Positions 4,179-26,304 of a stretch of DNA of 30,399 bases are shown in pieces (position 1 is the first letter of the stretch; each line of letters opens with the position of its first letter). A program made the position numbers and the translations under genes. This DNA comes from a virus, in the IMG/VR virus record IMGVR_UViG_3300028569_000120, positions 1 to 30,399 of that record; one strand, given 5' to 3'. The notes under the pieces were generated by a model. The model saw only the letters and a program-made list of their open reading frames with translations. It did not search any database and had not been told where the DNA came from.

Positions 4179-4207
4179 ATAATATCATAATTTATAAAAG
4201 TTGTCAA
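4179..4207 (-). promoter_or_regulatory. sigma70 promoter with spacer dyad
   Basis: On the minus strand: TTGACA (4207-4202), 17-nt spacer, TATTAT (4184-4179) with an extended -10 TG. The 17-nt spacer is identical to that of the plus-strand promoter at 6202-6230, which suggests a common bound regulator. Confidence 0.8.
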
Positions 4208-4746: not shown

Positions 4747-5016
4747 TTAGAAAGTTATAGGTTCTGTTTGGGAGATATCAAATACTGATACCATACGATA
4801 ATTTGTGAGCTCATCTTGATTTGTCTTTTTATCTTTCTTGAAGTTAGGAACAAATATCTTGAAGCTTTTTTCTCCTTTTTTTACAACTCTACCATTAGCA
4901 AGCCATTGCTTGAAACCTCCAACGGTACCTTCAATCTGGACTTCTCTTTTGTCTGCTTGTTCAATTAGAACTTTAGAATTTACAGGGCTTAGTTGTTTAC
5001 CAGTTATCATTGTCAT
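4747..5016 (-). CDS. ArdC-like N-terminal domain mini-protein
   Basis: An 89-aa protein. Residues 34-50 (GFKQWLANGRVVKKGEK) and the C-terminal VFDISQTE (78-85) match the pattern of ArdC-type N-terminal domains (G.. QW...GR.V.KGEK ... V.VFDVSQTE), which bind ssDNA in plasmid and phage anti-restriction or primase-associated proteins. Full ArdC proteins are about 300 aa and carry a C-terminal metallopeptidase-like domain; here only the DNA-binding part is present. As an early gene with its own promoter only ~30 nt upstream, a role in protecting or handling incoming DNA is plausible. The first ATG (5016) fits the CACATTATG context. Confidence 0.68.
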   Translation of the reverse strand: MTMITGKQLSPVNSKVLIEQADKREVQIEGTVGGFKQWLANGRVVKKGEKSFKIFVPNFKKDKKTNQDELTNYRMVSVFDISQTEPITF

Positions 5017-5054: not shown

Positions 5055-5083
5055 AGTATATCATAAATTATAAACCTTGTCAA
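5055..5083 (-). promoter_or_regulatory. sigma70 promoter of the ArdC-like unit
   Basis: On the minus strand: TTGACA (5083-5078), 17-nt spacer with TTATAATTTATGA, TATACT (5060-5055) with extended -10 TG. It lies between the terminator at 5093-5121 and the ATG at 5016. Confidence 0.82.
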
Positions 5084-6170: not shown

Positions 6171-6199
6171 ATTATGCCTTATTTTTTAGAAAATGTCAA
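6171..6199 (-). promoter_or_regulatory. minus-strand promoter of the divergent pair
   Basis: On the minus strand: TTGACA (6199-6194), 17-nt spacer, CATAAT (6176-6171). It drives the structured leader and the gene at 5755-6012. It lies 2 bp from the -35 of the plus-strand promoter, so RNA polymerase binding at the two should interfere. Confidence 0.65.
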
Positions 6200-6201
6200 A
6201 C

Positions 6202-6230
6202 TTTACAACTTTTATAAATTATGATATAAT
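6202..6230 (+). promoter_or_regulatory. plus-strand promoter of the rightward arm
   Basis: TTTACA (6202-6207), 17-nt spacer, TATAAT (6225-6230) with extended -10 TG. The spacer is identical to that of the minus-strand promoter at 4179-4207. It is the only clear promoter found ahead of the whole rightward arm. Confidence 0.8.
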
Positions 6231-6264
6231 TATAGAGTACATTAAGACTATTAAAGATAATACA

Positions 6265-6600
6265 ATGATAATATTTAAAGGAAAAGAGTATTATACTAAT
6301 AGTGAAATGATTGGGATATTCGGAGGTAAATATGATTATAATAGCTACCCTACAAGATATGGAAGAATAAAAATAAGTATTTTTGAAAAGGAAAAAGTAG
6401 ATAATTATATTAAGTATAGAAAAAAGCATAACCGGATTATTGATAATGTAGATATATCTCTAATAAAAGATTTAAAGCATAAGAAAATAGCAATGGACAG
6501 GCTACAAAAAAGATATACATTGCAAAAGTTAGCAGATAAATACAATATGAGTAAACAAAACATATCCCTAATATTAGCTAAGTATAAGAAAAAAGATTAA
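6265..6600 (+). CDS. HTH regulator-like protein
   Basis: A 111-aa basic protein. The frame is open from an ATG at 6193, but the promoter at 6202-6230 lies inside that extension, so the ATG at 6265 (MIIFKGKEYY) is the likely start. The C-terminal third contains LADKYNMSKQNISLILAKY, a clear helix-turn-helix with a basic tail. The N-terminal part is beta-like and unrecognised. As the first gene of the rightward arm, beside divergent promoters, it may regulate the early/late switch or act on the promoter spacer dyad. DNA binding is inferred from the HTH only. Confidence 0.65.
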   Translation: MIIFKGKEYYTNSEMIGIFGGKYDYNSYPTRYGRIKISIFEKEKVDNYIKYRKKHNRIIDNVDISLIKDLKHKKIAMDRLQKRYTLQKLADKYNMSKQNISLILAKYKKKD

Positions 6601-6613
6601 TTAATAAAACACT

Positions 6614-7324
6614 ATGAAGACTAAATACGATATAAATCAATTTATGAAAAAAAAATTAAAGATTAATTTAGTTATCCCCACCCTTACTAGATTTGATTTA
6701 TTAAAAAGATTATTAGAAAGTGTAGATAAATTAAAAAGAAAGCCAGATAGAATAATTGTAATAGATAACAGTAATGGACAATTGCCAGATATAAAAGGAA
6801 TAGAGATTGTCCCAGCTAGTAATTTAGGAGTAGCTCAAAGTTGGAATTTGGGAATTCAAATGTCTAGTTGGGATGATATAGTAGTTATTTGTAATGATGA
6901 TAATATACTAAAAAATGAGGCTATAGCAGAGATTGAAAAGTTAGCTATAGAATATGAAAGACATCCGTTCTTTGCTTCGGCTGCAGGCGGATTTTCATTT
7001 TTTGCATTAAGAAAAAATATAGCTATAAACCTAGTAGGATATTTTGATGAAGGATTTTATCCGGCTTACTATGAAGATAATGATTATCACTATAGGATGA
7101 AACTAAAAGATTTAAATTTTATTTGTACAGATAAAGAGTTATATGAGTTAGGAGTAGATGGACAAGGTTCACAAACTTTAAATGGCAGTATAACCCCTCA
7201 ATATATAAAAGACTATATTAATGCTGGATTTTTATCTAATCAATACAGATATATTTGTAAGTGGGGAGGTATGCCAGATAGAGAACAATTTAAGATACCA
7301 TTTAATTTAGATAATAGTAAATAA
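6614..7324 (+). CDS. GT-A (family 2-like) glycosyltransferase
   Basis: A 236-aa protein with the GT2 layout: an N-terminal strand and nucleotide-binding start (INLVIPTLTRFDLLKRLLES), IIVIDNSNG, a mid segment NLGVAQSWNLGI, then VVICNDDN as the metal-binding DxD-type motif, and a C-terminal acceptor region with GYFDEGFYPAYYEDNDYHYR (the ED dyad as possible base). No signal or membrane segment, so it should act in the cytoplasm. It opens a run of tailoring genes ending in a TET/JBP-like dioxygenase, so modified DNA bases are a possible acceptor; glycosylation of virion protein is an alternative. Start context AAACACTATG. Confidence 0.85.
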   Translation: MKTKYDINQFMKKKLKINLVIPTLTRFDLLKRLLESVDKLKRKPDRIIVIDNSNGQLPDIKGIEIVPASNLGVAQSWNLGIQMSSWDDIVVICNDDNILKNEAIAEIEKLAIEYERHPFFASAAGGFSFFALRKNIAINLVGYFDEGFYPAYYEDNDYHYRMKLKDLNFICTDKELYELGVDGQGSQTLNGSITPQYIKDYINAGFLSNQYRYICKWGGMPDREQFKIPFNLDNSK

Positions 7325-7326
7325 TT

Positions 7327-7878
7327 ATGAGTTATAGTAAAAAAGTTATTCAAGAAAGAATTAAAAAATTATTAGAAACACCTAGAGTATATTGGAGTCC
7401 TTTATCTTATGAAAATAAAGTTGATGGGCTTGTAGATTTAGCTAAAAAATATATAACAGATAAAGATTTTGTAGTAGAGGTAGGTAGTTTCTCAGGAGTT
7501 AGTAGTCAAGTTTTAGCTTTACATTGTAAAGAATTACATTGTATAGACCCTTATCACTGGGAGGCTGTAATAGAAGCTGAAAAAATGTTTGATAAAATGT
7601 TATTAGATTATTCTAATATTACAAAGGTTAAAAAATTAAGTATAGAAGGATCCAAAGATTATGCAGATAATAGTATTGATGTAGTATATATAGACGGAGA
7701 CCACTCATATAGTTCCGTAGTAGAAGATATAAATGCTTGGAAAAATAAAGTTAAAAAAGGAGGATATATTGCAGGGCACGATTCATTTATGCCAGAGGTG
7801 CTACAAGCTGTAAAAGACACTTTAGGAGAACCTTTAGAAACATTTGATGATACTAGTTGGATAATAAAAATAAAATAG
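7327..7878 (+). CDS. class I SAM-dependent methyltransferase (Methyltransf_24 type)
   Basis: A 183-aa protein. Motif I is VVEVGSFSGVSS, followed by the acidic ELHCIDPYHW strand end. The later block DVVYIDGDHSYSSVVEDI and the GGYIAGHDSF segment are typical of Methyltransf_24 enzymes, which often methylate sugars or small molecules. It lacks DNA-methylase motifs such as DPPY or the PC of C5-methylases. It sits between two glycosyltransferase genes with 2-nt spacing, so its substrate may be a sugar added by them. Confidence 0.82.
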   Translation: MSYSKKVIQERIKKLLETPRVYWSPLSYENKVDGLVDLAKKYITDKDFVVEVGSFSGVSSQVLALHCKELHCIDPYHWEAVIEAEKMFDKMLLDYSNITKVKKLSIEGSKDYADNSIDVVYIDGDHSYSSVVEDINAWKNKVKKGGYIAGHDSFMPEVLQAVKDTLGEPLETFDDTSWIIKIK

Positions 7879-7879
7879 T

Positions 7880-8437
7880 ATGTATTTATATATAATTACA
7901 CCTTGTAGCCGTCCAGAAAATCTACATACTATAGCTTATTCTATAAACATCCCTAAAGAAAATTATAGTTGGATTGTAGTTCACGATAGTTTAGAGATAC
8001 CAGATAAAAAACTATTACCATATAATTCATTACATATAGCTAGTAAAGTTGAAGGGAGTGTAGTAGGACACGGGCAGAGGAATATTGGATTAGATCTTGT
8101 ACCACGAACAGAAGAAAATTGGATTTATTTTAATGATGATGACACTATAATTTATCAAGATTTATGGGATAATATTCAAGGGAAAGGAGCGGATTATGAT
8201 TTTATACATTTCCACCAAGAGAATAAAGACCATAGCATAAGATTAGATAGTGGATTAGTAGAGCTATGCCATATGGATAGCCATAATTTTATATTCAAAG
8301 CTAGTCTATTAGGAAATACAAAATTTATAATATCTGACTATTGTGCTGATGGTTATTTTGCTAAAGAAATTTATGAGAAAGCTAAAAGTCCACTATATAT
8401 TGAAAAAGTATTATCTACTTATAATGCTTTAAGATAA
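7880..8437 (+). CDS. GT-A glycosyltransferase-like protein
   Basis: A 185-aa protein. It starts with YIITPCSRPENL (GT-A nucleotide-binding strand), has a GQRNIGLDL helix, the metal motif YFNDDDTI, and a C-terminal HNFIFKASLLG plus YCADGYFAKEI region as acceptor and base. It is shorter than most GT2 enzymes, similar to compact phage GTs. It follows the methyltransferase by 1 nt and is co-transcribed with it. Donor and acceptor cannot be read from sequence. Confidence 0.78.
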   Translation: MYLYIITPCSRPENLHTIAYSINIPKENYSWIVVHDSLEIPDKKLLPYNSLHIASKVEGSVVGHGQRNIGLDLVPRTEENWIYFNDDDTIIYQDLWDNIQGKGADYDFIHFHQENKDHSIRLDSGLVELCHMDSHNFIFKASLLGNTKFIISDYCADGYFAKEIYEKAKSPLYIEKVLSTYNALR

Positions 8438-8441
8438 ACTT

Positions 8442-8576
8442 ATGAAAAAGAAAATATTATTTTACCTAAAATCATTTGTCAGAGCTGTAATATTTATAAT
8501 ATTAGCTCCTATAATGTTTGTAGTAGTCCTTATATCCCTTACATTATTATTAATAGCACCAGTTAAAGATAAATAG
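8442..8576 (+). CDS. 44-aa membrane peptide
   Basis: A short ORF between two glycosyltransferase genes: basic N-terminus (MKKK), a long hydrophobic segment (about 14-41) and a charged end. It starts 4 nt after the preceding stop and ends 1 nt before the GT4 ATG, filling the gap perfectly in the style of its neighbours, so it is probably real. One membrane span; function unknown. It could anchor the tailoring enzymes, but that is a guess. Confidence 0.6.
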   Translation: MKKKILFYLKSFVRAVIFIILAPIMFVVVLISLTLLLIAPVKDK

Positions 8577-8577
8577 T

Positions 8578-9798
8578 ATGAAATTACTTATATATGCAGA
8601 TACTCCAACTTGTAATACAGGCTTTGGGATAGTGTCTAGAAACATAATAACTCAATTATTAGAAAAAATACCAGATATAGAAATTGAAGTCTTAGGAATA
8701 AATGAAAGTGGAGAACACTCAGATTTAAGAAGGCACCCTAGATTAATTATCCACCCAGCTTTTGATGGGCGGGAGCTTCACGGTAGATTCAAATTAATAA
8801 AATTTTTATCTGAAGATAGATTTGACCAAGTGCTTATAATTCACGATATAGTCACTATGGTTCAAGCCTTAGACCCTAATGGAGATGGAGTAGCTAGTGC
8901 CATTGAAAAGATAAAACCTTTTACAAAAGCAAGATACCATTTTTACTTCCCTATTGATTCTAAGTTTGAATTAGATAAAAATTATGATTGGCTCAGAAAG
9001 CTCAATGCTTTTGACACCCTTATCCCGTACACTTATTTTGCTAAAGAACAAATGAAAATAGCAGGGATTAAAACGGCTGAACCTATGTACCACGGAGCAG
9101 ATACTAGTGTATTTTACCCAAAGGGAAGGGCAGAAAGAAAAAGGCTCAAGAAGGAGCTATTTGAGGCTAAATCGGATACTAAGATTATATCTATAATTGC
9201 CAGAAATCAATGGAGAAAAGATATCCCAGCCTCAATTGCTATATTTGCAGAATATAATAAGAAGATTAATTCTAATTCAAAACTATATATACACTCAAGG
9301 TTAGTGGATGTCGGTGGAAATCTAAAACAATATTTAGACTTGCATAATCTAGAAGAAGGAAAAGATTATTTGACGGCTAAAGATTTGAACCCAGCTAATG
9401 GAGTTGATGAATCAAGCCTCAATGATATATACAATGCTAGTGACTTATTATTATCCTCAGCTAGAGGAGAAGGCTTTGGATTACCATATCTAGAGGCTAT
9501 GGCAACAAAAACTTTAATTATGGCTAATAATTCATCAGTAGAAGAGGAGCTATTACCTATGGAATATTGGCACTGGCATAATTCTTATACCTATGTACCT
9601 TCAGGACAAGACGGATTGCCGTTCTTTAGAGCTACAGTGGATGAATTTTGGGCAGTAGCTTGTCAAATAGAGAAACTATTCAAAAAAGATACAGATGAAT
9701 TGACAAGCATAAAAGAAAAAGCATATAATAGGATTAAGGAAGACTTTGATTGGAGTAAGGAGATAGAAAAATTAGTTAAAATATTAGTTAAGAATTAA
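8578..9798 (+). CDS. GT4 (GT-B fold) glycosyltransferase
   Basis: A 406-aa protein with the two-domain GT-B arrangement. The N-terminal domain starts LLIYADTPTCNTGFGIVSRN (a glycine-rich loop). The C-terminal domain has IISIIARNQWRKDIP, then SLNDIYNASDLLLSSARGEGFGLPYLEAMA, the canonical GT4 donor-binding EGFGLPYLEAMA block including the E that contacts the nucleotide sugar. Length is normal for the family. Third glycosyltransferase in the cassette upstream of the dioxygenase. Likely cytoplasmic. Confidence 0.88.
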   Translation: MKLLIYADTPTCNTGFGIVSRNIITQLLEKIPDIEIEVLGINESGEHSDLRRHPRLIIHPAFDGRELHGRFKLIKFLSEDRFDQVLIIHDIVTMVQALDPNGDGVASAIEKIKPFTKARYHFYFPIDSKFELDKNYDWLRKLNAFDTLIPYTYFAKEQMKIAGIKTAEPMYHGADTSVFYPKGRAERKRLKKELFEAKSDTKIISIIARNQWRKDIPASIAIFAEYNKKINSNSKLYIHSRLVDVGGNLKQYLDLHNLEEGKDYLTAKDLNPANGVDESSLNDIYNASDLLLSSARGEGFGLPYLEAMATKTLIMANNSSVEEELLPMEYWHWHNSYTYVPSGQDGLPFFRATVDEFWAVACQIEKLFKKDTDELTSIKEKAYNRIKEDFDWSKEIEKLVKILVKN

Positions 9799-9808
9799 GA
9801 ATACAATT

Positions 9809-10426
9809 ATGGCAACTATAATTCATACAGATACAGTAAGTAAAATGAATATATCAGATTTAAAACTTAACGACCATAACCCTAGAGATATAACTATTGA
9901 ACAAAAGGAAAAACTCAAAAAATCTTTGATAGACTTCCCAGATATGTTAGAAGCCAGACCACTTATTATAGATGAGAATAATGTAGTCTTAGGAGGAAAT
10001 ATGAGACTTAGAGTCCTTCAAGAGTTAGGATATACAGAAGTTCCGGTAAAAAAAGTAGAAGGATGGACAGATAAACAAAAAAAGGAGTTTATAATAAAAG
10101 ACAATGTTAGTTATGGACAATGGGATTGGGAAGTATTAGGAAATGAGTGGGAAGCGGATGAATTGAGGAGCTGGGGATTGTTTATCCCTAATTGGGAGCA
10201 AGATGTAGACTATTCTGCATTAGACGAAGGAGATGATGAAATAGATGGCAATTTAGATAGTATGGCAGATGGAGTTAGAAAATCTATACAGATTGAATTC
10301 ACACCGGAAGATTATATGAAAGCATACCAGCTATGCCAGTATGCCAGAAGTAAAGATGTATATATTGGAGAACACCTTATAAACTTATTGCAAAATATTA
10401 AGGATGAATATGAATCAAAGAATTAA
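9809..10426 (+). CDS. ParB-like nuclease-domain protein
   Basis: A 205-aa protein. Residues about 12-95 are a ParB/sulfiredoxin-type domain: ISDLKLNDHNPRDI, then RPLIIDENNVVLGGNMRLRVLQELGYTEVPV, the hallmark V(V/I)xGGxxR loop. A tryptophan-rich segment (VSYGQWDWEVL) follows, then an acidic linker and a C-terminal helical region. Phage proteins of this kind are typically encoded with DNA-modifying enzymes (methylases, or TET/JBP and TAGT genes) near the terminase, as here. Its exact role, DNA recognition or NTP binding, is not shown by sequence. It overlaps the start of the next reading frame. Confidence 0.85.
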   Translation: MATIIHTDTVSKMNISDLKLNDHNPRDITIEQKEKLKKSLIDFPDMLEARPLIIDENNVVLGGNMRLRVLQELGYTEVPVKKVEGWTDKQKKEFIIKDNVSYGQWDWEVLGNEWEADELRSWGLFIPNWEQDVDYSALDEGDDEIDGNLDSMADGVRKSIQIEFTPEDYMKAYQLCQYARSKDVYIGEHLINLLQNIKDEYESKN

Positions 10427-10550
10427 GATTTGTATACCCAGCAAAGGTAGACCAGATACTAAAACCTATAAGATATTTGAGAAATTAGGATATGAAGTAT
10501 ATTTATTCTTAGAGCCTCAAGATATTAGAATTAAATGGAAAAATATATGA
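10404..10550 (+). pseudogene. N-terminal stump of a TAGT-like glycosyltransferase
   Basis: A 48-codon ORF (alternative ATG 10410) between the ParB-like and dioxygenase genes. The pattern IKICIPSKGRPDTKTYKIFEK followed by GYEVYLFLEPQD resembles the first beta-alpha-beta unit of TET/JBP-associated glycosyltransferases (IPSxxR...T...L), but the remaining ~150 residues of a typical enzyme are missing. It ends at a TGA within ATGA that overlaps the dioxygenase start codon. Either a deletion fused the two genes or the fragment persists as a coupling peptide. It overlaps the ParB-like gene by 23 nt. The family call rests on one short motif. Confidence 0.5.
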
Positions 10551-11338
10551 AAAGAGTAGACCTTATAAAAGTAGAACATAATGTAAAAATGGGAGATACT
10601 TGCCCTAGCTACGAACCTAATATAACAGAAGATTGTATCTTCTACGAAAACGATGAGCCAGTAGGATTCTATATTAAGGAAATGCCAGAGTATATGTGTA
10701 AATTGGCAGATATAGCTAATGCAGAAGTTCGAAGCGATAGAGTGCCAAAAAATTTAAATGCAAGAATGCCAACTGATGGAAAAGATGAAGCTACAGGAAA
10801 ATATAAGTATAAGAATGTTGTAGCTCAATACTCAGCTATTATAGGGGGTGTACCTCCAAAAGCTCACATGAAAAGACCATATCCAAGTATGAGTTCAGTT
10901 CACTTAGTACCCTCAGCTCAAACTTTTATTAGAGCTATGCTATTACTTGCTAATGAGTCTGAAAAGCTTATAAAAGAAATACTACCTACCCAGTGGGAAA
11001 AACAAACAGAGTTATTTAAGAGTGTCCCAAAGAAATGGAAGTTTGGTAATCTTTGGACAAGCTCAATTACTAACTGTAATATCTCTGCAGACTTTCACAG
11101 AGATAATGCTAATATAAAGGGAGCTTCAAATGTTATCATAACTAAAAGAAATAATGCCACAGGAGGTAATTTACATATCCCAGATTATAATGCAACTATG
11201 GATAGTGCTAATAATTCTATACTAGTGTATCCGGCTTGGAAGAATATGCACGGAGTTACACCTATAGTCCCAACTTATGAAGGAGGTTATAGAAACTCAC
11301 TCGTATTTTATCCTTTATCAGCTTTTAGGAAGAAATAA
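10547..11338 (+). CDS. TET/JBP-like 2-oxoglutarate/Fe(II) dioxygenase
   Basis: A 263-aa protein. The C-terminal third shows the iron and 2-oxoglutarate set in order: FHRD (H184 and D186 of the HxD motif), then N188, a double-stranded beta-helix stretch with ATGGNLHIPDY, the distal His in MHGVTPI (H235), and the 2OG-binding Arg in YRNSLVFYPL (R249). The spacing and the G-YR-SL ending match the TET/JBP branch that hydroxylates 5-methylcytosine or thymine in DNA. I took ATG 10547, which overlaps the previous TGA as ATGA; ATG 10535 is possible. Its position with ParB-like, TAGT-like and glycosyltransferase genes directly upstream of terminase is the known phage arrangement for base hypermodification. 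Substrate base unproven. Confidence 0.78.
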   Translation: MKRVDLIKVEHNVKMGDTCPSYEPNITEDCIFYENDEPVGFYIKEMPEYMCKLADIANAEVRSDRVPKNLNARMPTDGKDEATGKYKYKNVVAQYSAIIGGVPPKAHMKRPYPSMSSVHLVPSAQTFIRAMLLLANESEKLIKEILPTQWEKQTELFKSVPKKWKFGNLWTSSITNCNISADFHRDNANIKGASNVIITKRNNATGGNLHIPDYNATMDSANNSILVYPAWKNMHGVTPIVPTYEGGYRNSLVFYPLSAFRKK

Positions 11339-11362: not shown

Positions 11363-11785
11363 ATGGGATATAAAAAAATTCAACCTAGATGGAAAAAAGG
11401 AGAAAGCGGAAATAAAAACGGTAGACCACGAAAGCTAGTCACTGAAACTATATTACAATTACAAGCTTTAGGGATAAAAGAAGTGACGGCTCAAGAAGTC
11501 AAGGCTGTATATATGTCTTTGATTAATGCCACTATAAAAGAATTAGAGACTTTAGGAAAAGATAAAACCCAACCGGCTATAGTTAGAATTGTTATATCTC
11601 AAATACTAAGTAAGAAAGGTTATGATATAATAGAAAGGATGTTAGATAGGAGTATAGGGAAAGCACAGATGAACATAGACCACACAACTCAAGGAGACAA
11701 AATTATCTCAGAGTTGAACATAAACATAATTGATGGTACAAATGGATATCAATCTACTGAAACCCTACAAGAAACTAATAACTAA
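11363..11785 (+). CDS. DUF5681-type small terminase-like protein
   Basis: A 140-aa protein. The N-terminus has the DUF5681 signature WKKGESGNKNGRPRK (a basic glycine-rich stretch), followed by helices. Proteins of this type sit directly upstream of TerL and are thought to act as small terminase or DNA-recognition subunits. The gene overlaps TerL by about 50 nt in another frame. DNA-end specificity cannot be predicted. Confidence 0.78.
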   Translation: MGYKKIQPRWKKGESGNKNGRPRKLVTETILQLQALGIKEVTAQEVKAVYMSLINATIKELETLGKDKTQPAIVRIVISQILSKKGYDIIERMLDRSIGKAQMNIDHTTQGDKIISELNINIIDGTNGYQSTETLQETNN

Positions 11786-12965
11786 TAATACAAGATATTA
11801 TTTGTTATATGGCGGAAGAGCCGGAGGTAGAAGCTATGCCGGTAGTCAAAAAGCTATTATAGACACAATTACAAGACCTTATAGCCGTATAGCTATTATG
11901 AGGCTTATAGCCGGAGATATCCGTTCAAGTATTTGGCAAGATGTAAAAGACAGATTAGAGGAGTATGGATTGCCAGAACCTACTGCTGATAGGGATATGA
12001 AATACAATTATAAAAATAATTCTATTGATTCAAAAGGATTTAAGCAGTCCTCAGGACAAAATAAAGCTAAATTAAAATCTTTAGCTGGTTATACTACAAT
12101 TATTATTGAGGAGGCTGATGAGATCACAGAAGAAGATTTTGATAACCTAGATACTTCTATTAGAACTACAAAAGCTAAGAACAATATTATATTATTGTTC
12201 AATATGCCAGATAAAAATCATTGGATTATAAGACGATGGTTTAACTTGCAAGACTCAGAGATTGAAGACTTCTATATCCCAGTGCCTAAAAATAGACCAG
12301 ACACAACTTATATTGAAGCTAGTTATAAAGATAATATAGTCAATTTATCTAAAGAGTCAGTAGATACAATGGAGTCTTTTATTCACAGGAGACCAGATTA
12401 TTATTACAATATGATTAAAGGTTATGTGCCGTCTGGTAAAAGAGGTAGAATATTTAAGAATTGGCACCCTATTACAAATGAAGAATTTGAGCAACTACCT
12501 TATTCATCAAGCTATGGATTAGATTTTGGATATTCAAATGACCCTACTGCTTTAGTTGAGATCAAAAAACATAATAATAAACTATATCTAAAAGAACTTA
12601 TTTATGAGAGGGGCTTATTGAATTCTCATATAGCCGGAAGGATGAGAACTTTAGGAGTAAACGGAACTATAATAGCAGATAGTGCAGAGCCTAAATCTAT
12701 TGAAGAAATAAGGCAATATGGATTTGATATTATGGGAGCAGATAAATCTAAGGGCTCAGTTTCTTTTGGGATCGGAGCTTTACAAGAAATAGAAGTATAC
12801 TATACAGAGGATAGTTTGAATTTAGCAAATGAATTACAAAACTATGTCTATAAACTAGATAAAAATAAAGAGCCTACAAATGAACCTATAGATGATTATA
12901 ATCATATTATGGATGCTATAAGATATGGAGCTATAACTAAAAAAATAGAATTTGTAATACTATGA
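11733..12965 (+). CDS. terL: terminase large subunit (TerL)
   Basis: A 410-aa protein. The ATPase has a Walker A variant GGRAGGRS (27-34) and Walker B TTIIIEEADE (121-130). The nuclease domain shows LDFGYSNDPTAL, IIADSAEPKSIEEI and the final acidic DDYNHIMDAIRYG, as in PBSX/Terminase_3-like large subunits. It packages DNA into the prohead with TerS and portal. ATG 11733 is used; ATG 11742 is a good alternative since the family's conserved start is near INLLKPYK. It ends in TGA overlapping the next ATG. Confidence 0.95.
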   Translation: MVQMDINLLKPYKKLITNNTRYYLLYGGRAGGRSYAGSQKAIIDTITRPYSRIAIMRLIAGDIRSSIWQDVKDRLEEYGLPEPTADRDMKYNYKNNSIDSKGFKQSSGQNKAKLKSLAGYTTIIIEEADEITEEDFDNLDTSIRTTKAKNNIILLFNMPDKNHWIIRRWFNLQDSEIEDFYIPVPKNRPDTTYIEASYKDNIVNLSKESVDTMESFIHRRPDYYYNMIKGYVPSGKRGRIFKNWHPITNEEFEQLPYSSSYGLDFGYSNDPTALVEIKKHNNKLYLKELIYERGLLNSHIAGRMRTLGVNGTIIADSAEPKSIEEIRQYGFDIMGADKSKGSVSFGIGALQEIEVYYTEDSLNLANELQNYVYKLDKNKEPTNEPIDDYNHIMDAIRYGAITKKIEFVIL

Positions 12966-25252: not shown

Positions 25253-26304
25253 CAATTAATAAACCTAATAAAACATATTCTTTTGTAGCTACTACAGTTG
25301 CTAAATCTGCAGAAGTCAACACAAATTTTGACAATGCTTTTAGTATGTATGATACAGACGGTTATTTGTATAGTGGTTGGTTTACTTTAGCTGGAGCTAG
25401 TTTAGAGTTTAACAGTTCTGACTCAGTTAAAACTACTGCTGATATAAATTTAACTGGTAAAATACAGGTTGGAGATAAAATGACTTTTGAAAACCCCGGA
25501 GAAAAGTTTTTTACTGTAATAACTATAAACTACAACTCAACTGTAGCTAATAGAACTTATATTCAATTATCTGGAAATACAGTAGCTAATTCTGCTATAA
25601 GTGCTAATTCTGTAGGTCTTTCAAGATATGCCAGACCATTAAAATATCCTACAACAACTCTTGCCTTAGAAATATATCCTATTGGTTCAATTTATACTTC
25701 GGTTGTAAATGTAAACCCTAACACTTATTTTGGAGGAACTTGGAGTGCCTTTGCTACTGGTAGAACATTAGTTGGAGTAGATACAGGACAAACTGAGTTT
25801 GACGCAATAGAAGAAACAGGTGGAGCTAAAACTCATACTTTGACTTCTGGAGAAATGCCGTCTCACACCCATACACAGAATAGCCATAACCATCTACAAG
25901 ATTCACACAATCACATACAGAATAGCCATAACCATCTACAAGACGCACACAATCACACACAAGATAGCCATAATCATACACAAAATTCACATACACATAG
26001 AACAGATATAGCACAACCATATAGCTCTAATCACACACAATTTACAGCAGTTCCTGGTGGTACAGGTGCATCTATAAATGCTGCTGATGGACTGCAATCA
26101 GGAAGTACAACTGCTACCAATCAAGCTACATTTGCTACCAATCAAGCTACATTTGCTACCAATCAAGCTGCATTTGCTACCAATCAAGCTGCATTTGCTA
26201 CCAATCAAGCTACAACCGCTACTAACCAAAATGCAGGTAGTGGAGCTGCTCACAATAACTTGCAGCCTTACATTACAGTTTACTTCTTTAAGAGAACAGC
26301 ATAA
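25249..26304 (+). CDS. tail collar/fibre protein with histidine repeats
   Basis: A 351-aa protein. N-terminal region (1-140) beta-like. Then YPIGSIYTSVVNVNPNTYFGGTW...TGRTLVGVD, the collar-type tip domain found in phage fibre and baseplate ends. Residues 205-253 are seven 7-residue units with an H-x-H core (SHNHLQD-like). Residues 289-330 are six 7-residue units ATNQATF-like. HxH pairs in fibre tips of other phages (T4 gp37 type) bind iron in trimers, so this may be a metal-bound needle. Likely receptor binding. Confidence 0.82.
   Translation: MTINKPNKTYSFVATTVAKSAEVNTNFDNAFSMYDTDGYLYSGWFTLAGASLEFNSSDSVKTTADINLTGKIQVGDKMTFENPGEKFFTVITINYNSTVANRTYIQLSGNTVANSAISANSVGLSRYARPLKYPTTTLALEIYPIGSIYTSVVNVNPNTYFGGTWSAFATGRTLVGVDTGQTEFDAIEETGGAKTHTLTSGEMPSHTHTQNSHNHLQDSHNHIQNSHNHLQDAHNHTQDSHNHTQNSHTHRTDIAQPYSSNHTQFTAVPGGTGASINAADGLQSGSTTATNQATFATNQATFATNQAAFATNQAAFATNQATTATNQNAGSGAAHNNLQPYITVYFFKRTA
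25861..26007 (+). repeat. seven 21-bp tandem repeats encoding H-x-H heptads
   Basis: In-frame 21-bp units give seven residues each: SHTHTQN, SHNHLQD, SHNHIQN, SHNHLQD, AHNHTQD, SHNHTQN, SHTHRTD. The units differ at third bases, so they are maintained by selection and are not a recent expansion. Confidence 0.9.
26113..26238 (+). repeat. six 21-bp tandem repeats encoding ATNQATF units
   Basis: The units are nearly identical at the DNA level (GCTACCAATCAAGC core), giving ATNQATF, ATNQATF, ATNQAAF, ATNQAAF, ATNQATT, ATNQNAG. High identity suggests recent expansion and possible copy-number change by slippage, always in frame. Confidence 0.9.

Follow-up and report, generated by a model that had tools for sequence, protein, structure and literature searches.

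In kinetoplastids, base J is made in two steps, with JBP1 and JBP2 hydroxylating thymine in DNA and the glucosyltransferase JGT acting afterwards. This glucosyltransferase we take to be linked to the TAGT group of enzymes. Among phages, a ParB-like gene, a TET/JBP dioxygenase gene and further 'cargo' genes joined by short overlaps occur in the actinophage DR cluster (PMC9302106) and in Rhodococcus phage Tonitrus (PMC11955845), and TAGT (PF20691) is the T6 beta-glucosyl-HMC-alpha-glucosyltransferase (PMC13216743). Parts of these systems recur in the locus described here, which lies in IMG/VR virus record IMGVR_UViG_3300028569_000120 (the window, i.e. the entire record of 30,399 bases, GC 32%). 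The system is thus already known, but the window holds a member that has lost the sugar-adding step: positions 9809–11338 appear to form a ParB–TAGT–TET/JBP island of known type with the catalytic core of TAGT deleted. With moderate confidence, and on the strength of sequence comparison, we propose that this degraded island converts thymine to bare 5-hydroxymethyluracil, and that a neighbouring block of glycosyltransferase (GT) genes is a separate unit, perhaps making a virion glycan.

In mechanistic terms, the ParB-like protein would bind DNA and deliver the dioxygenase, an enzyme of well-supported family that would hydroxylate a pyrimidine already incorporated in DNA at its 5-methyl group; thymine, which would yield 5-hydroxymethyluracil, is the most likely substrate. 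The enzyme that acts next in relatives is encoded in the cargo slot and differs between phages: TAGT would add a sugar, an FkbM-type enzyme perhaps a methyl group, and the kinase, ADDT and pyridoxal phosphate (PLP) enzymes would add a phosphate and then carry out amino-acid chemistry. This step after hydroxylation seems to be missing in the window phage, so that some thymines of its virion DNA are probably present as 5-hydroxymethyluracil without a substituent. A preliminary description of the locus had suggested that the phage may carry hydroxylated, glycosylated and perhaps methylated bases; hydroxylation remains probable, whereas glycosylation is no longer the leading prediction, because TAGT is cut to 46 codons and the GT block also occurs in phages without TET/JBP.

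The evidence for this loss lies in the 46-codon frame between the ParB-like and dioxygenase genes, which reads MNQRIKICIPSKGRPDTKTYKIFEKLGYEVYLFLEPQDIRIKWKNI. Its first 39 residues match the TAGT N-terminus in a search of all open reading frames (ORFs) with a profile made without the fragment (table 1), and the TAGT-like fragment of the preliminary description is thus real. It consists of the TAGT N-terminus fused in frame to the last TAGT codons; the D-D motif and the rest of the catalytic core are missing, and between ParB and TET the window has no complete modifying enzyme, be it TAGT or an alternative. The closely related record L002, with a dioxygenase 95–96% identical to that of the window, starts inside a TAGT gene that ends ...GRIDIRIKWKNI and has retained its C-terminus, and the DNA from GATATTAGAATTAAATGG on is common to both. 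Most simply, the catalytic core was lost through a deletion that kept the reading frame, possibly at a short shared GATATT stretch presumed to have been a repeat.

The dioxygenase itself matches Tet_JBP (PF12851) with 39.2 bits against a curated cut-off of 34.9. Its iron triad, H184 and D186 (HxD) together with H235, as well as the 2-oxoglutarate-binding R249 are invariant in 40 homologues, as are N189 and Y255, and the family profile aligns with TET2 across HRDxxN and H...R...FY; this profile does find TET2, whereas a phmmer search of the PDB with the single protein yielded no relative. In a structure model built from the 40 homologues (mean predicted local distance difference test score, pLDDT, 92), human TET2, CcTet, NgTET1 and CMD1 account for the first 26 PDB matches, with FTO and AlkB appearing only afterwards. 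The earlier assignment to TET/JBP, which had rested on the HxD, distal H and R set, is therefore borne out by Pfam score, profile alignment, catalytic residues and structure, and the structure comparison that had been suggested places the fold within TET/JBP, with TET a closer match than AlkB or FTO. The ATG at 10547, from which this gene had been read, is retained as its start because it overlaps the stop of the preceding frame as ATGA, just as in relatives. Public annotation differs: phrog_6059 and RefSeq (MED4-184, several mycobacteriophages) name the family 'queuine tRNA-ribosyltransferase', a label that the TET fold and residues refute and that is apparently a propagated error.

If the cargo enzyme is lost, the whole island could be decaying, with the dioxygenase irrelevant and the phage DNA effectively unmodified, and signs of decay may not have had time to build up since the loss. 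We regard this as quite improbable, since the catalytic residues are all intact and the ratio of non-synonymous to synonymous substitution rates (dN/dS) against L002 is low, i.e. 0.073 for the dioxygenase, with 0.098 for the large terminase subunit (TerL) and 0.08–0.11 for most head and packaging genes. The dioxygenase gene thus appears constrained over the span to L002, a span that includes time before the deletion. Moreover, three other loci keep ParB and TET without any cargo, L006 and L033 with a clean ATGA overlap and L144 with direct adjacency.

The dioxygenase is part of a very large clade in phages, with at least 560 relatives in IMG/VR. We examined 120 loci with this gene. At loci that include the upstream gene, the layout is ParB–cargo–dioxygenase–terminase; almost all relatives that cover this region have a ParB-like gene ahead of the dioxygenase, and the gaps at the cargo genes, where given, are mostly ATGA overlaps. 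In the window, too, the ParB-like and TET/JBP genes lie in one operon before the terminase. Layout and Pfam matches of the relatives together support the suggested partnership of the dioxygenase with ParB and TAGT in a DNA-modification island. Among about 96 loci with the upstream region in view, near-duplicates counted in, the cargo is TAGT in about 50, an FkbM-type methyltransferase in 30, kinase-type in eight, unassigned in five and absent in the three already named. Pfam identifies TAGT in L019, L028, L010, L012, L031 and L042 and ADDT (PF18724) in L030, L035, L036, L094 and L117, and a PLP-like enzyme is found below the Pfam cut-off in L030 and L097; the FkbM-type label was confirmed (PF05050) in L020, the one tested. 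The unassigned cargo comprises proteins of 301 and 309 amino acids (L073, L074, L078, L135, L143), that of L073 having no Pfam family, and the kinase/ADDT-type cargo of L094, L117, L119 and L122 falls outside the count.

On a tree of 102 dioxygenases, cargo switches at least 33 times, compared with 40.8 for shuffled labels, and is therefore swapped often. Carriers of kinase, ADDT and PLP genes are interspersed with TAGT carriers, and L112 and L116 have near-identical dioxygenases although one phage has a kinase/ADDT pathway and the other TAGT. As this quick tree contains long branches (L030, L034, L035, L036, L144), its details are not relied on. ParB–cargo–TET is thus an exchange site at which near-identical dioxygenases are combined with very different second enzymes.

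Several observations on this cargo stand on their own. The FkbM-type methyltransferase, directly before the dioxygenase in L016, L017, L018, L020, L029, L034 and about 24 more loci, is the second commonest ParB–TET cargo, isolated Prochlorococcus phages included, and would predict an O-methylated hydroxymethyl base; among the papers searched, none links FkbM, phage, DNA modification and dioxygenase. Between TAGT and dioxygenase, L109 carries a sulfotransferase gene (1684–2247; PF03567, 4e-16), which suggests a sulfated sugar on DNA. A four-gene cargo between ParB and TET in L117 (5712–8014) and L122 (4899–7189) encodes glutamine amidotransferase-like and GNAT-like proteins (both recognized by eye), ADDT (by Pfam in L117) and a P-loop kinase. 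The gene annotated 'DNA methylase' before the MED4-184 dioxygenase encodes in fact a ParB-like protein. In TET-less L046 (1168–2577), L055 (10445–11488) and L037 (11218–12486), the ParB-like protein occurs ahead of further DNA-modifying proteins or in fusion with them (two of the Mom family, one C5-methylase and one N6/N4 methylase).

Upstream of the island, at 6614–9798, lie genes for a GT2-type glycosyltransferase (GT2a), a methyltransferase, a GT-A-like protein (GTb) and a GT4-type glycosyltransferase. That the three glycosyltransferases and the methyltransferase are partners of the dioxygenase, as initially proposed, finds no support, given homologues in phages without TET/JBP, namely L037, S-CBS4, TJE1 and phiPsal1, often beside capsid genes, and DNA modification by the three glycosyltransferases is ruled out as the leading reading. 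L037 is a sister phage (portal 53%, capsid 44%, ParB 70% identical), in which a fusion of ParB with an N6/N4 DNA methylase comes after GTb, GT4 and other probable GT genes. Its GTb is 59% identical to that of the window, with the DDD motif in a common RN...NDDD context, its GT4 is 53% identical, and genes of the Tet_JBP, C5-methylase and thymidylate-synthase-like kinds are absent from its 35.6 kb. In phiPsal1 and S-CBS4, GT4, GT2 and methyltransferase genes are found among head genes, both with GT2a homologues, and in TJE1 a GT4 homologue adjoins methyltransferase and sugar-nucleotide genes; Tet_JBP is absent from all three. Methyltransferase homologues of 62–66% identity adjoin GTb in L131 and L153–L157, and L118 also has one. 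In L131 the pair lies behind TerL, on top of an intact TAGT, and the longer L153–L157 records place it among several probable GTs, Tet_JBP being absent from the three of these records tested. A search of IMG/VR with GT2a gave no match. In addition, a perfect sigma-70 promoter within the GT4 gene, at its 3' end, points to ParB (about 0.02 expected per window, both strands, at the same composition), and a second promoter (6202–6230) precedes the block. Because block homologues are found without TET or beside an intact TAGT, and because ParB has a promoter of its own, block and island look like two modules that are neighbours by chance. The methyltransferase is probably a sugar O-methyltransferase, and the product of the block is probably an O-methylated glycan carried by a protein of the virion, virion glycosylation being named as a known role of phage glycosyltransferases in a passage of PMC12619734 that cites Freeman et al. 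2023.

Alternatively, the block could have replaced the deleted TAGT and now build an O-methylated oligosaccharide on the hydroxymethyl base. It does share its strand with ParB and lies immediately ahead of it, the island is otherwise incomplete and few islands have no cargo (3 of about 96), and serial DNA glycosylation by several GTs is known in T-even phages (PMC13216743). We nevertheless consider such a replacement unlikely, given that L037 has GTb, GT4 and probable GTs but none of the Tet_JBP, thymidylate-synthase-like and C5-methylase genes, that homologous trios stand beside capsid genes in TET-less phages, that L131 has GTb and methyltransferase besides an intact TAGT, and that GTb is not demonstrably TAGT-like. 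Proteins of the block show no Pfam match to TAGT, and GTb and GT2a were rejected as TAGT substitutes with hhalign probabilities against TAGT of only 13% and 8%, respectively. The more specific idea that GT2, methyltransferase, GTb and GT4 were recruited after the deletion to put an O-methylated multi-sugar chain on TET-made 5-hydroxymethyluracil appears less likely still. To our knowledge, such a hypermodification has no earlier description.

As to the substrate of the dioxygenase, thymine, already an option in the preliminary description, is inferred to be favoured over 5-methylcytosine (5mC) on three indirect lines of evidence. All 40 homologues have L or I at the position aligned with TET2 H1904, presumably a cytosine contact. 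In close kin, enzymes that belong to thymidine hypermodification (kinase, ADDT and PLP types) fill the slot of the window's TAGT remnant. The L030 ADDT resembles ADDT-like proteins of Salmonella ViI-like phages, and the Tonitrus authors give the same reading to its ParB/TET/ADDT/kinase set (PMC11955845). A C5-methylase (PF00145), by contrast, occurs in only 5 of the 41 dioxygenase-bearing records and is absent from the other 36, including the complete genomes of MED4-184, Tonitrus and LilMcDreamy. As the first description had noted, PF00145 was not found in the window either, though the record may be incomplete. Among the selected window proteins scanned, no 5-hydroxymethyluracil kinase, ADDT or related enzyme was recognized.

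The competing view, which seems to us possible but rather doubtful, is that the dioxygenase oxidizes 5mC, supplied by a host C5-methylase or one encoded in an unsequenced part of the phage, to 5-hydroxymethylcytosine. It draws on the nearest solved structures being 5mC oxidases and on those five records of the clade that do carry PF00145; the whole genomes without it and the thymidine hypermodification enzymes in the same slot argue in the other direction. Several further points weigh against bare 5-hydroxymethyluracil made by a degraded island. A phage TET is reportedly active on 5mC (Burke et al. 2021), N189, which aligns with a base-contact residue of TET2, is conserved, and a host C5-methylase could supply 5mC. 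The record is typed linear and has no end repeats, so the window may be a fragment. Since the T-even TAGT acts on glucosylated hydroxymethylcytosine (PMC13216743), TAGT relatives alone do not indicate thymine. As DNA GT genes can cluster in phages that have several of them, DNA is still a conceivable target of the GT block. Finally, no other IMG/VR record contains the deletion junction, and an intact TAGT tail is found in L002 only; as the junction is seen in one record only, it may be of chance origin, an assembly error or a minority variant.

Table 1. Features in and around the island (positions in the window).
Feature	Position	Strand	Evidence
GT2-type glycosyltransferase (GT2a)	6614..7324	+	Pfam Glycos_transf_2 E 2.6e-7, over cut-off; phrog_29879 3e-30
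S-adenosylmethionine (SAM)-dependent methyltransferase	7327..7878	+	Pfam Methyltransf_24 E 3e-17
GT-A-like protein (GTb)	7880..8437	+	DDD motif; no Pfam family over cut-off
GT4-type glycosyltransferase	8578..9798	+	Pfam Glycos_transf_1 E 7e-8; phrog_2170 8e-38
Sigma-70-type promoter TTGACA-18-TATAAT, 3' end of GT4 gene	9700..9729	+	12/12 match
ParB-like protein, opens island	9809..10426	+	phrog_620 4e-25; phrog_498 (ParB-DNA methyltransferase) 2.5e-27; no Pfam match
TAGT remnant, 46 codons, in frame	10410..10550	+	TAGT profile E 7.9e-11
TET/JBP-family Fe(II)/2-oxoglutarate dioxygenase	10547..11338	+	Pfam Tet_JBP E 5e-10; structure; catalytic residues
Probable terminase small subunit	11363..11785	+	Pfam DUF5681 9e-8; between dioxygenase and TerL
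Terminase large subunit (TerL)	11730..12965	+	Pfam Terminase_3 2.8e-29

The genes listed in the preliminary description are all present on the plus strand up to the terminase, and head genes come after the terminase. A scan of genomes for the host returned only four metagenome-assembled contigs (two beta-proteobacteria, one Oscillatoria and one Flavobacteriaceae). Elsewhere in the window, a small protein encoded at 4747–5016 on the minus strand corresponds to the N-terminal domain of the anti-restriction factor ArdC (PF08401, 4e-9), and short tandem repeats with a 21-base period lie within a tail-fibre gene (25861–26235). Near-identical sigma-70-type promoter repeats are found on the minus strand (2822–2850, 4179–4207 and 5055–5083) and on the plus strand in the copy preceding the GT block; as the latter sits within the start of ORF 6193–6600, the true start of this ORF is probably later.

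Overall, the window shows a phage DNA-modification island of widespread type in which nature has knocked out glycosylation, so that the effect of hydroxylation becomes separable from what the sugar adds. The choice between thymine and 5mC becomes testable in the isolates MED4-184, Tonitrus and LilMcDreamy. The island also provides a context for lone phage TAGTs of unknown function, which occur in 288 of 753 phage genomes (PMC13216743).

Compared with the systems introduced at the outset, the window thus combines familiar and altered parts. The base J system is eukaryotic and operates without ParB, whereas the window has its glycosyltransferase deleted; with the T6 enzyme, the remnant shares the TAGT N-terminus, its 35 N-terminal residues matching the TAGT profile, but not the catalytic core. 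In the DR cluster and Tonitrus, the island stands directly before the terminase, as in the window, but the cargo is ADDT plus kinase rather than a TAGT remnant. The Prochlorococcus phages MED4-184, P-HS2 and MED4-117 likewise have the order of the window, with a ParB-like gene, cargo, a dioxygenase 49.6% identical and then the terminase; their cargo, however, is an intact FkbM-type methyltransferase.

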